A stretch of 64,000 nucleotides of DNA from Paenibacillus sp. G2S3 (GTDB taxonomy: Bacteria > Bacillota > Bacilli > Paenibacillales > Paenibacillaceae): NCBI RefSeq assembly GCF_030123105.1, contig NZ_CP126095.1, positions 4,526,001-4,590,000 of the forward strand, read 5' to 3'. How positions within the stretch are numbered: the first letter of the stretch is position 1; every line of letters begins with the position of its first letter. Below, piece after piece: positions 59,222 through 62,982 of this stretch. A program made the position numbers and the translations under genes. The notes beneath the pieces were generated by a model, which worked only from the letters and a program-made list of their open reading frames with translations, was not told the DNA's origin and made no database searches.

Positions 59222-59947
59222 TTAGCCCGTTACAACATTTCCATAAGTATCTCGAACAATCACTTTAACATTAGCCGGAGCCCCAACAGTCACGTCCAGT
59301 GTGTTCCGAGAATTATCGAATAGCAGATTTCTAGGAGTTTCCCCTAAAATGATGTATAGCGTATTCCCAACATGCTTAGTTTGAAGCAGCTGTTGCTCTT
59401 GTGCTTCTTGTAGCTTTCCTTTATTTGAAGAATAACTCCCGAATACATTCAGCTCGTTTCCACCCGTTTGATCTACTTTAATCCCATAAGGCTCTGCAGC
59501 TTGGATAATGATGGTACTAACGCCCTCTGGAACGGCTCCCTTCCAATCTGGCAATGCGTAACTTTCTTGCACAGCTGAAACGGTACGGCGAAATTCCTGT
59601 GTTAATCCTAAAGAACTAAATCCCGCAAAAACCAAACAACATACAACTATAAACCCTACGAACAGAACGCTTAGCACATCATAATACATTTTTCCTTTTC
59701 CACGAAACCATAAAGTGTATATCACAATTTCTAAGCCTAATAATATAAAAATGATCGGCCACCAAGCAAGCGTCGTCTCAAACACTTCGGCGCCCCTCCA
59801 CTGCGAGACCATGATTAGTGCTCCCAGAAATAAAAGGCTCAATCCCATCGACAACGTTCCAACACGCCAGCGTCTTGATTTATCTTCAGCAACCGGACGC
59901 TCACTTGAAACAATAACTCCTTGCTGTAATTCTGTCGGATTATTCAA
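59222..59947 (-). CDS. Membrane protein with LiaF-like layout, end of the sigma operon
   Basis: A 241-aa protein. Three membrane segments lie at ~30-48, ~58-77 and ~92-112, after a charged N-terminus with KSRRWRVGTLSMGLSLLFLGAL, as in DUF5668/LiaF-type proteins. The C-terminal ~125 residues are an outside-facing beta domain (STIIIQAAEPYGIKVDQTG to VKVIVRDTYGNVV). Its ATG overlaps the stop of the upstream gene by 4 nt. A role in envelope-stress sensing is inferred from topology and operon. Confidence 0.75.
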   Translation of the reverse strand: MNNPTELQQGVIVSSERPVAEDKSRRWRVGTLSMGLSLLFLGALIMVSQWRGAEVFETTLAWWPIIFILLGLEIVIYTLWFRGKGKMYYDVLSVLFVGFIVVCCLVFAGFSSLGLTQEFRRTVSAVQESYALPDWKGAVPEGVSTIIIQAAEPYGIKVDQTGGNELNVFGSYSSNKGKLQEAQEQQLLQTKHVGNTLYIILGETPRNLLFDNSRNTLDVTVGAPANVKVIVRDTYGNVVTG

Positions 59948-61047
59948 GAATGACCACCTGTCCCTTTTCTCCCTTTATTGTTCTTGCTTCCCGCCATCAG
60001 CTTCAAACCACCGCCAATCAACAGCACAGATACGATAAAGGTCCTGAAATATTCATTGACTATATACTCTAAACGCCATCCAGGAAATCTGATATCAAGC
60101 GCAGGAACTGCGACATTAACTACAATGTAATACAGTCCTAGACACATCAGAGCAGCTCCAAGCCATCCTTGATGATTTAAAAATCCTTCTATGACTGGCT
60201 TATCCTGTAAAGGTTCACGTCCATGTCGGCTGACAAGCTGTAAGCCATCGAACAAACTGTAAAACCAAATGACTGGGATCAGGAAGAAGAGTAACGTTAA
60301 CCGCAGTAGGTCCATGACATAAATGCTTCCTAGGAATAGTAACATGAGCTGTAATCCTCTTTTTTGCAGCCCTAGATACATTTGTCCGGCACCCGGAAAA
60401 GCAGAAAGCAGTGTAGCCAAAACTTTGCTACGGCGCCCCTCCTCACGACCAGCCTCCATCTCTTCGAATAAAGTACGATCTACCATTTCTTCTCCAGCTT
60501 GCTTGCGATGGATTAACTGAACCGCATCAAACATACAATATAACCAAATCACTGGTAATACGCCAAACAGGAGAAGGAAAACATCACTTGACGTAATCCC
60601 TGCCAGGAATAACATCACGGTCATAAAACCGAAGAAAGAAATGAGGAAAGACAATCCTCGCTGCATCAACCCCATATGAAAATGACCCAATCCTGGAATG
60701 AACGATAATAAAATTACATGTACACGCTCATTATCGTCTGTCTTAACGGGCATTGAAGAAAAATCAAAATTCGATCCATCTGGAGTCATTATCGGAGCAG
60801 GCATCTGCAGCATTTTAACCACCAGATGCACCATCGAAACCGTCCCAATAAGTAGGAACCCTATCACACCCATTAATAGAATATCCTCGGCACCTTCAGC
60901 CACAGCTATTAAGAATGACATAAATAAGATGCCAAAGCTTAACAGAAGATAAACAATTCCCTGTGGGCGTTTTCCCATATAATAATGACCTGCTCCAGGA
61001 ATCAAATTAAGAAAAAAAGCCTTTAATTTACTACGCTGCTGTTGCAT
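59944..61047 (-). CDS. Polytopic membrane protein with three PGxG-module repeats
   Basis: A 367-aa protein built from three similar units: LKAFFLNLIPGAGHYYMGKRPQG (~7), VILLSFIPGLGHFHMGLMQRG (~109) and LATLLSAFPGAGQMYLGLQKRG (~210). Each is followed by hydrophobic hairpins, then a C-terminal two-segment part ending in a basic tail. The module resembles a TM2-type unit in its Gly-x-x-x-Gly spacing. Its function is unknown. It is cotranscribed with an ECF sigma and anti-sigma, so a part in membrane-stress response is inferred. Confidence 0.75.
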   Translation of the reverse strand: MQQQRSKLKAFFLNLIPGAGHYYMGKRPQGIVYLLLSFGILFMSFLIAVAEGAEDILLMGVIGFLLIGTVSMVHLVVKMLQMPAPIMTPDGSNFDFSSMPVKTDDNERVHVILLSFIPGLGHFHMGLMQRGLSFLISFFGFMTVMLFLAGITSSDVFLLLFGVLPVIWLYCMFDAVQLIHRKQAGEEMVDRTLFEEMEAGREEGRRSKVLATLLSAFPGAGQMYLGLQKRGLQLMLLFLGSIYVMDLLRLTLLFFLIPVIWFYSLFDGLQLVSRHGREPLQDKPVIEGFLNHQGWLGAALMCLGLYYIVVNVAVPALDIRFPGWRLEYIVNEYFRTFIVSVLLIGGGLKLMAGSKNNKGRKGTGGHS

Positions 61048-61065: not shown

Positions 61066-61551
61066 TCACTTTCTGCTGCCCATTAGCTGATCCAACCATC
61101 CGCTAGTTGCCTGTATGACTTGCTCGCTAAATGATAGGGAATTATCTTTTTTAGGGATCATAAGCTCCATTTGACCTGTGTGCAGCTTATCAAACATACC
61201 AGATGTCATTATCAACAGCGTAAGTGACGCGGCAACCGCATAATGAAAGATTGTCTTTTCATACCAGCGATATCGCCGTCCCCCTTCTTCAACCGTCACT
61301 TGTTCCAATGCTGCTGAAGATTCCGTCATTTTAGCCCAATCTGCCATAACCCTCTCTGTAAAAATAGACGAATTCTCCAATGAAGGCAGATCCTCCTGCA
61401 GCTGATCCAATATTTCCATGTATGAAGTAAAACTTTCCGTATCTTCTAGCAGCAACTGTTCCCAATCTTCTCTGGTCGCTTCGTCCATGTGACCTTCAAT
61501 ATAAGCTTTTGCTTGTTCCCGTTGGATTAGATCGTCTCCACGCTTCATCAT
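61066..61551 (-). CDS. Anti-sigma factor (membrane-anchored)
   Basis: A ~161-aa protein. The cytoplasmic N-terminal half (QREQAKAYIEGHMDEATREDWEQLLLEDTESFTSYMEILDQLQ) follows the anti-sigma pattern without a zinc-binding HxxxCxxC. One membrane segment is at ~104-122 (FHYAVAASLTLLIMTSGMF), then a short outside tail. The chosen ATG at 61551 overlaps the sigma stop (ATGA) and has AAGGAGG 10 nt before it; the ATG at 61557 is also possible. Coupling to the sigma gene fits one-to-one binding. Confidence 0.82.
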   Translation of the reverse strand: MMKRGDDLIQREQAKAYIEGHMDEATREDWEQLLLEDTESFTSYMEILDQLQEDLPSLENSSIFTERVMADWAKMTESSAALEQVTVEEGGRRYRWYEKTIFHYAVAASLTLLIMTSGMFDKLHTGQMELMIPKKDNSLSFSEQVIQATSGWLDQLMGSRK

Positions 61552-62096
61552 AGCCATTCGTCCTCCTTCCAATGATTTCGGATCCATTGTCTCGCCCTAT
61601 ACAATCTGGACTCTACCGTCTTCAGGGAAATTCCCTGCTCTGCAGCAATCTGATCATATTTTTTATGTTCCAGATAATAAGCCACCATAATTTCACGATG
61701 AGTTTCAGGCAGGCTATTGATTTCACCGAGCAGCCGATCCATCCGATCACGGCGTATAACACCTGACAACACATCCTCTTCGTTGGAAGCGGTCTGGCTC
61801 AGTACAAGCTCATAGTCAACAGGAAGTTCCCTAAGTCGATCACGTTTACGTTTCGCATCAATTGCCTTATTTAAGGCGATCCGTGTAATCCATGACTTTA
61901 AGCCTTGATAACGGTAGTCAGGGAGAGATTTGTACATTTGTAAAAAAGCTTCCTGAGCAGCATCTTCAGCCATTTTGACATCGCGTAATACAGAATAAGT
62001 AATTTTGTAAATTTGCTGACTGTATGTATTTACAAATTGACGGAATGCATCCTCGTTACCTTGGCAAATCCGCTGGATTAATACCTCTTCTTCAAT
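61548..62096 (-). CDS. ECF RNA polymerase sigma factor, apparent ATT start
   Basis: A ~182-aa ECF sigma. Region 2 has AFRQFVNTYSQQIYKITYSVLRDVKMAEDAAQEAFLQMYKSL and YQGLKSWITRIALNKAIDAKRK. Region 4 has LLGEINSLPETHREIMVAYYLEHKKYDQIAAEQGISLKTVESRLYRARQWI. The probable start is ATT at 62096, with a perfect AAGGAGG 8 nt upstream and the family-typical opening EEEVLIQRICQGNEDAF. The only canonical in-frame start (GTG at 62183) is inside the preceding gene's terminator stem and adds 29 unrelated residues. Operon: sigma, anti-sigma, two membrane proteins. Confidence 0.85.
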   Translation of the reverse strand: MEEEVLIQRICQGNEDAFRQFVNTYSQQIYKITYSVLRDVKMAEDAAQEAFLQMYKSLPDYRYQGLKSWITRIALNKAIDAKRKRDRLRELPVDYELVLSQTASNEEDVLSGVIRRDRMDRLLGEINSLPETHREIMVAYYLEHKKYDQIAAEQGISLKTVESRLYRARQWIRNHWKEDEWL

Positions 62097-62167
62097 GACT
62101 CTCCCCTCCTTCCCACAGCAATAGACGCGCCCGATTACAACTACCCCTGCACTTTTTAATAAAAATA

Positions 62168-62217
62168 TTAAAAAGAACCGCACTGACTTTAGCGATGGGC
62201 TAAAGCAGTGCGGTTCT
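62168..62217 (-). terminator. Terminator of dnaD
   Basis: On the minus strand AGAACCGCACTGCTTTAGC pairs with GCTAAAGTCAGTGCGGTTCT (one mismatch) around a 4-nt loop, followed by TTTTTAATATTTTT. The stem is 18 bp. It begins 13 nt past the dnaD stop. Confidence 0.93.
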
Positions 62218-62229
62218 CTCCTAATCTAT

Positions 62230-62982
62230 CTATCTTCCGCCATTGCGGAATTTTTGTGTATAGTTCTTAACATCCTGAGCGTTCTTGACCCGGTTGCGGG
62301 CCCATTCCAGCAATATTCGATCAATATAACGGAAATGAACCTTTCCTGCAAATACAGATTCCTTCAGCGCTAACAGAATCAGCTCCTCGGGATACCGGTC
62401 TTGATCCACCCAACTGGATATCGTCTCACACTCCATTGGAGATAGCGGACGTCCGAATTCCTTTTCGAAAATACTGAACAGATTTCGGCTTTCCTCTTCA
62501 GCCCCAAGTTGAGAAGGAGATGAGGGGGGCTTTCCGCCGAATCCACCCCCTGAAGCAGCTCGAGGTGCCGACGTTGCATAGCCACCTACGTGCTTATCTT
62601 GCTCATGCTCTTGTACAACTGTCGCTAGATAAGCACCAAGCTTTCCGTATAACCCTGAGAAATTGTAGCGTTCATAATGGATGTCTCTTAGCTCATCGTT
62701 GTCTCCATCGATGCTAATAAAACCTTCCTTCATAAGCTTCTGCAACTCTCCTGCTAGTACAGATATGCTACGGCCAGTTACAACCTGAAGCTCCTCAAGA
62801 GAAGGGAAGTCAATTCCTTCCACCTGCCTGAAAGAAAGCAGATGTATCAGCAGCATAGCTTCACTTCCGCTTAAATTCAGCTTCCGGTAATACTTCAGTA
62901 ATGCGTAAGGTATGACGGCCATTCCGTTCTCCAGACCGAAGGAGACGCCTTCGCCCCAGGTACTCCATCCTTTGCCGTCCAT
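62230..62982 (-). CDS. dnaD: DNA replication protein DnaD
   Basis: A 250-aa primosome protein that helps load the helicase. The N-terminal winged helix has YRKLNLSGSEAMLLIHLLSF and PSLEELQVVTGRSISVLAGELQKLMKEGFI. A Gly/Ser/Pro linker follows. The C-terminal DnaB_2 domain spans LFSIFEKEFGRPLSPMECETISSWVDQDRYPEELILLALKESVFAGKVHFRYIDRILLEWARNRVK. GGGGGA precedes the ATG. It lies just after asnS, as in B. subtilis. Confidence 0.93.
   Translation of the reverse strand: MDGKGWSTWGEGVSFGLENGMAVIPYALLKYYRKLNLSGSEAMLLIHLLSFRQVEGIDFPSLEELQVVTGRSISVLAGELQKLMKEGFISIDGDNDELRDIHYERYNFSGLYGKLGAYLATVVQEHEQDKHVGGYATSAPRAASGGGFGGKPPSSPSQLGAEEESRNLFSIFEKEFGRPLSPMECETISSWVDQDRYPEELILLALKESVFAGKVHFRYIDRILLEWARNRVKNAQDVKNYTQKFRNGGR

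Follow-up and report, generated by a model that had tools for sequence, protein, structure and literature searches.

Where does translation of an ECF sigma factor gene begin when its reading frame offers no ATG, GTG or TTG in a usable position? The question is raised by a gene on the reverse strand of Paenibacillus sp. G2S3, within the 64,000-nucleotide stretch analysed here (contig NZ_CP126095.1, positions 4,526,001 to 4,590,000; hereafter the window, in whose coordinates positions are given). The preliminary description of this locus had proposed that the gene starts at an ATT. AUU is a known rare start codon of infC, where it makes translation sensitive to initiation factor 3 (IF3), a factor that discriminates against this codon. 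To our knowledge, few chromosomal genes carry a non-canonical start with a regulatory role.

Results

The sigma factor gene and its candidate start codon

The features of the locus, in the direction of transcription, are as follows.

62230..62982, (-): dnaD, the upstream gene, ending ahead of the terminator
62174..62217, (-): dnaD terminator, a 12-bp perfect inverted repeat followed by a T-rich tract
62181..62183, (-): GTG, the sole canonical in-frame codon upstream, rejected as a start
62145..62150, (-): -35-like GCAGGG, 17 nt before the -10; GCAGNG in 125 of 126 family loci
62122..62127, (-): -10-like CGTCTA, part of a promoter of ECF type that is probably autoregulated; all 126 family loci have a CGTCTA-like sequence here
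62105..62111, (-): Shine-Dalgarno sequence AAGGAGG, 8 nt before the ATT, its purine block conserved
62094..62096, (-): ATT, the putative start codon, from the sequence and from AUH (AUU, AUC or AUA) at each of the 176 distinct homologous loci
61548..62096, (-): ECF sigma factor coding sequence, 182 codons plus TGA, with initiation at ATT 62096-62094
61066..61557, (-): putative membrane anti-sigma factor, judged from its location and from a run of hydrophobic residues noted by eye
59944..61047, (-): transmembrane-type protein matching DUF6677 and bearing IPGAGH-like repeats
59222..59947, (-): LiaF-like protein, scoring 18.7 bits where the Pfam cut-off is 27

The sigma factor domains (Pfam Sigma70_r2 and Sigma70_r4_2) are in frame from ATT 62096 to the TGA at 61548. 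The presence of regions 2 and 4, together with a score of 94.1 bits for TIGR02937 (cut-off 42.9), identifies the protein as a member of the ECF (group IV) sigma factors. It falls below the NCBIfam cut-offs for SigW (TIGR02948, 87.3 of 243.1 bits) and for the SigM family (TIGR02950, 78.2 of 147.95 bits), and among solved structures the closest in sequence is SigW, 5wuq.

The preliminary description had placed a perfect AAGGAGG 8 nt ahead of ATT 62096, and had named a GTG at 62183, within the 3' arm of the dnaD terminator, as the only ATG, GTG or TTG upstream in the sigma frame; both statements are borne out by the sequence. The frame stays open for 43 codons 5' of the ATT, and GTG 62183 is the one canonical codon in that interval. 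By sequence the gene belongs to the non-canonical start class, having a codon other than ATG, GTG or TTG, a Shine-Dalgarno sequence ahead of it and no usable canonical start. From these features and the comparisons below, we consider it very likely that the sigma factor gene starts at ATT 62096.

A promoter-like sequence lies between the GTG and the ATT

The arms of the dnaD terminator occupy 62217-62206 and 62185-62174. This hairpin was missed by a simple terminator scan, probably owing to its 20-nt loop, as the scan allows no more than 8. Between GTG 62183 and the Shine-Dalgarno sequence we found a promoter-like element, GCAGGG-17 nt-CGTCTA (62150-62122), which was absent from the preliminary description. 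As the GTG is located about 30 nt 5' of the -35, a transcript from this promoter would exclude it. The predicted leader comprises some 17-20 nt before the ATT, is essentially the Shine-Dalgarno sequence, and is predicted to be unstructured for each of the four candidate 5' ends folded.

Among 126 family loci the spacer between -35 and -10 is 17 nt in 92 and 16 nt in 33. The combined pattern GCAGNG-N16/17-CGTCTA-like, found in 125 of the 126 loci, places the operon among those with a conserved candidate autoregulatory promoter, and this ECF-type promoter is probably recognised by the gene's own sigma factor. The exact pattern occurs three times in the genome and its reversed control four times; since the count alone is not significant, the weight of the promoter comes from its conservation. 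Two of the three matches lie ahead of the sigma operon and of a paralogous operon described below. The third (L182) is situated inside a long open reading frame of the other strand and looks like chance.

Conservation of the AUH codon across the family and order

At E 1e-35, 243 of 394 family genomes yielded a homologue, representing 13 of 19 genera. The family set consisted of 135 loci, from which seven exact duplicates and the pair L022/L039, a single frameshifted gene from a metagenome-assembled genome (MAG), were removed to leave 126. In this MAG (UBA10396) the homologue is interrupted somewhere from residue 49 to residue 63, and tblastn recovers it as two pieces in different frames; the break is either an assembly error or a real frameshift. 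The start codons first picked in the 126 loci were ATT (109), ATC (12), ATA (4) and ATG (1). In L133, the locus with ATG, and in three of those with ATC, the codon picked sits directly before an ATT; with that ATT scored instead, the first base is A and the second T in all 126, with T, C and A at the third base in 113, 9 and 4 loci, respectively.

We then considered an order-wide set of 194 loci, reduced to 176 distinct ones by removal of 16 duplicates and the two frameshifted MAG copies, which spans family codes f1, f4, f5, f6, f8 and f9 together with 22 named Paenibacillus records. The codons first picked were ATT 145, ATC 21, ATA 7, ATG 2 (L133 and L302) and GTG 1 (L313). Six loci (L019, L055, L058, L133, L302 and L313) were scored at the following ATT rather than at the first candidate, and the homologous codon is then ATT in 151, ATC in 18 and ATA in 7, that is, AUH in 176 of 176. 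These loci cover six family codes and 34 genus codes at 31-100% identity, with phylogenetically uneven sampling, and the most distant of them, with 31-38% identity (such as L337-L341), could be paralogues. At least 18 switches among ATT, ATC and ATA are needed on a quickly built protein tree, a number that, like the split between the three codons, could move slightly given the two nearby AUH codons in each of L311, L319, L335 and similar loci. None of the switches reaches ATG at the homologous codon, though ATG is one base away from each of the three. It appears from this pattern that a weak AUH codon as such would be required, AUU, AUC and AUA interchanging over the order and AUG being unseen at that place. 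A natural ATG does occur one codon before the ATT in L133 and L302, and a GTG two codons before it, inside the Shine-Dalgarno sequence, in L313; the weak start is therefore not absolutely indispensable. Internal isoleucine codons of the family genes are ATT 760, ATC 565 and ATA 239. Relative to these, ATT is enriched at the start position, although the common descent of the loci tempers this comparison.

Beyond the order the comparison is at protein level. P0094 (Acetivibrio clariflavus), P0099 (a Clostridia MAG), P0095 and P0106 have a database methionine at the equivalent place, and four of the eight distant proteins (P0103 and P0114-P0116) have longer or different N-termini.

The alignment also bears on two other readings of the ATT. 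The preliminary description had called for an alignment of relatives, and had reasoned that a canonical codon at this position elsewhere would point to a sequence error here. The aligned relatives gave 0 of 176 distinct loci with a canonical codon at the homologous place and three with one 1-2 codons earlier, an outcome that leaves the ATT start unrefuted. A sequencing or assembly error is virtually inconceivable and is refuted by the occurrence of ATT, ATC or ATA in every one of the 176 distinct loci, which come from many assemblies. Initiation could alternatively take place in the +1 frame, at the TTG formed by ATTG (62095-62093 in the window), and be followed by a frameshift, and an NTG is indeed available in that frame in 105 of the 176 loci. 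However, the remaining 71 lack one, which contradicts a general mechanism, and the +1 frame of the window stops after five codons, making this reading extremely unlikely.

Canonical codons upstream and downstream of the ATT

At least one canonical codon is present upstream in the open frame in 74 of the 126 family loci and none in the other 52. In 24 of the 126, upstream canonical codons are absent and the nearest downstream one is at a distance of 20 or more codons. Among these 24 are L010 and L012, which share 99% and 96% identity with the window protein; here the frame opens just 20 codons before the ATT, without a canonical codon, and the first downstream one is 41 codons in. In 21 of 126 loci the interval from the -10 to the start does contain a canonical codon in frame, 6-9 codons ahead of the start and at or near the predicted 5' end; for those genomes an upstream start is excluded less firmly.

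The pattern of divergence, calculated from 253 related and non-independent pairs, changes at the ATT. Over the 60 nt before it the difference rates at codon positions 1, 2 and 3 are flat (0.152, 0.183 and 0.173), whereas over the 60 nt after it they are codon-like (0.107, 0.053 and 0.251), which implies that coding selection begins at about the ATT.

Taken with the position of the promoter, these data bear on translation from GTG 62183, which would give a 211-residue protein. The GTG is in frame, and the database cluster P0001 (211 aa, 63 member sequences) opens with the corresponding residues. Against this, it lies in the dnaD terminator and upstream of the -35, is without a Shine-Dalgarno sequence, has no canonical counterpart in the open frame of the close relatives L010 and L012, and precedes sequence whose divergence is not codon-like. 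We regard it as a most unlikely start. It is also very unlikely that the first downstream ATG, GTG or TTG is the start and that the ATT belongs to a conserved non-coding element. Some database entries do begin downstream (e.g. P0010, P0052 and P0059), but the first canonical codon lies anywhere between 4 and 65 codons in, and evolution as coding sequence is already seen over the first 20 codons past the ATT.

The ATT start is annotated now and then, and mostly not. A locus could be assigned to 22 of 119 database relatives. Two of these start at the ATT, namely P0016 (Paenibacillus agri) and, by its match to L073, from which the codon was read, P0046. Of the other 20, P0088 begins at an internal ATC and 19 at a canonical codon either upstream or downstream. 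Gene callers thus often misplace the starts of these sigma factors, as seen in 20 of 22 matched database proteins.

A paralogous ECF operon and control genes

The same genome contains a paralogous ECF gene (L002, G000:C1:1490631-1491170:+) that is 34% identical and has the same promoter type and Shine-Dalgarno sequence. By eye its operon has a similar order: the sigma factor gene is followed by genes for a CxxC protein with a hydrophobic stretch, for a transmembrane protein of the IPG type and for a LiaF-like protein. From 67 paralogue loci, nine of them duplicates, we obtained 58 distinct ones, in which the start is CTG in 41, TTG in 16, GTG in one and ATG in none; five loci with an ATA just before the CTG were scored at the CTG. 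The -10 and -35 are present in 58 of 58. Only one of the 58 (L230) passes a strict test for absence of alternative starts, hence the CTG start rests on its conserved position and on TTG or GTG at the same codon elsewhere.

A control ECF group from the same genus has a GTG start in 20 of 20 loci, including the reference L003; 21 loci were aligned, and L234, a different paralogue with ATG, was left out. For infC, 31 genomes of the genus were matched, one of them without a locus, and ATC behind GGAGG was found in 30 of 30 loci, with an alternative ATG five codons after the ATC. This is consistent with AUH initiation in these cells. A second, divergent infC paralogue (L123/L342, G000:C1:424819-425322:-) has a long Ala/Lys-rich linker, and this second IF3-like gene was matched in 100 of 100 genus genomes (E 1e-20).

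The other ECF genes of the genome were located at 32 places, of which 28 loci were taken. Fifteen of the 20 examined have a canonical codon supported by a Shine-Dalgarno sequence, sometimes far upstream, as in L109; a crude rule found none in the remaining five (L106, L111, L115, L116 and L118). A tblastn search of the 28 loci left nine without a match, and L112 gave just a meaningless 13-residue match. In L109 (G000:C1:1268343-1268855:-) we noted by eye a Shine-Dalgarno-like AAAGGGAGGG followed by an in-frame CTG in place of a canonical codon, and L109 is a possible further non-canonical start.

Downstream genes and a model for the probable weak start

The ATG of the putative anti-sigma gene (61557, or 61551) overlaps the sigma factor stop and has its own AAGGAGG at 61568-61562. 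The protein has no match in Pfam or NCBIfam. In a search of canonical codons only, this gene has a canonical start supported by a Shine-Dalgarno sequence in 154 of 154 scorable loci. The protein encoded at 59944-61047 carries three IPG(A/L)GH-like repeats, and its DUF6677 match is barely above the cut-off. Taken together, the putative anti-sigma, transmembrane-type and LiaF-like neighbours give a weak indication of an envelope-stress circuit.

Initiation at the AUU itself is strongly inferred. We propose a model in which AUU would initiate translation of the sigma factor on an mRNA with a short leader, transcribed from a promoter that is probably recognised by the sigma factor itself. The strong Shine-Dalgarno sequence would hold the ribosome at the site, and the AUU, disfavoured by IF3, would keep the yield low. 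The downstream gene, probably encoding an anti-sigma factor and having its own Shine-Dalgarno sequence and ATG, should stay in excess, so that a leaky autoactivating promoter could not run away. By analogy with known weak starts, the AUU probably acts as a translational brake, giving a low yield. From sequence and analogy we likewise think it probable that a weak, IF3-discriminated AUU start keeps the sigma factor, which probably activates its own gene, less abundant than its anti-sigma factor.

The choice between IF3-dependent regulation and a fixed low level is roughly even. The AUU start may be real and merely set a low constant level that neither IF3 nor stress ever varies, a reading to which we give somewhat less than an even chance. 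In its favour, enhanced translation of the Streptomyces sigma factor gene sigR under oxidative stress could not be demonstrated (PMC5472188). A constant level would fit the stoichiometric part of the preferred explanation, in which the AUU holds the sigma factor below the anti-sigma factor. A more speculative extension, which we hold to be doubtful, is that weak initiation would be a design rule of paired related ECF circuits, with AUH in one and CUG, UUG or GUG in the other, and that envelope stress would be read via initiation fidelity, perhaps with the second IF3 paralogue setting AUU use.

Discussion

The sigma factor described here resembles Bacillus subtilis SigW and SigM in domain make-up and probably in circuit type, but lies far below both NCBIfam cut-offs. 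As far as is known, sigma factor genes of the Bacillus subtilis SigW/SigM type have canonical starts. With infC it shares a conserved AUH start behind a strong Shine-Dalgarno sequence; unlike infC, the target is a sigma factor, and any effect of IF3 would act in trans and not as autoregulation. The AUU, AUC and AUA starts, together with CUG, UUG and GUG in the paralogue, offer a natural codon series for testing IF3 control in Gram-positives.

Conserved AUH starts with an extended Shine-Dalgarno sequence on regulator-type genes of Bacillota are also described in a Staphylococcus aureus study (PMC13009471). There S. aureus and B. subtilis share the conserved AUA start of ccpN, and cvfC1 of S. 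aureus starts with AUU; these genes encode a repressor or a small protein, whereas ours encodes a sigma factor. In the S. aureus reporters, AUU and AUA sites with extended Shine-Dalgarno sequences gave about 10% of AUG, and the ccpN site up to 30% of AUG in rich medium (PMC13009471). Reporters of rsbW in a Listeria study rank ATG > ATA > ATT.

The closest parallel is sigR of Streptomyces (PMC5472188). This ECF sigma factor gene has a GTC start that is repressed by IF3, and canonical codons yield an excess of sigma factor, a principle demonstrated through changes of start codon and of IF3 (PMC5472188). This precedent strengthens the case for a translational brake at the present locus. Both genes have an extensive Shine-Dalgarno sequence, a conserved non-canonical start that is misannotated in databases, and a cotranscribed downstream anti-sigma gene, which is putative in our case (PMC5472188). 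They differ in their codons, AUU, AUC and AUA here versus GTC in 32 of 34 species and GTT in two for sigR (PMC5472188). They also differ in distribution, order-wide here versus one genus, in the (putative) anti-sigma factor, and in that the present system is known from sequence.

Among the matches listed in a search of the open-licence PMC literature, we found no description of an AUH start on this sigma factor; those matches included the sigR paper and one on Vibrio quorum sensing. Within those same matches it is, after sigR, the second sigma factor found with a non-canonical start, with another codon set and a wider taxonomic spread. The AUH start on an ECF sigma factor, maintained across an order, is apparently independent of Streptomyces sigR, which has another codon and belongs to another phylum, and this suggests that weakened initiation recurs as a means to hold an autoactivating sigma factor below its anti-sigma factor.
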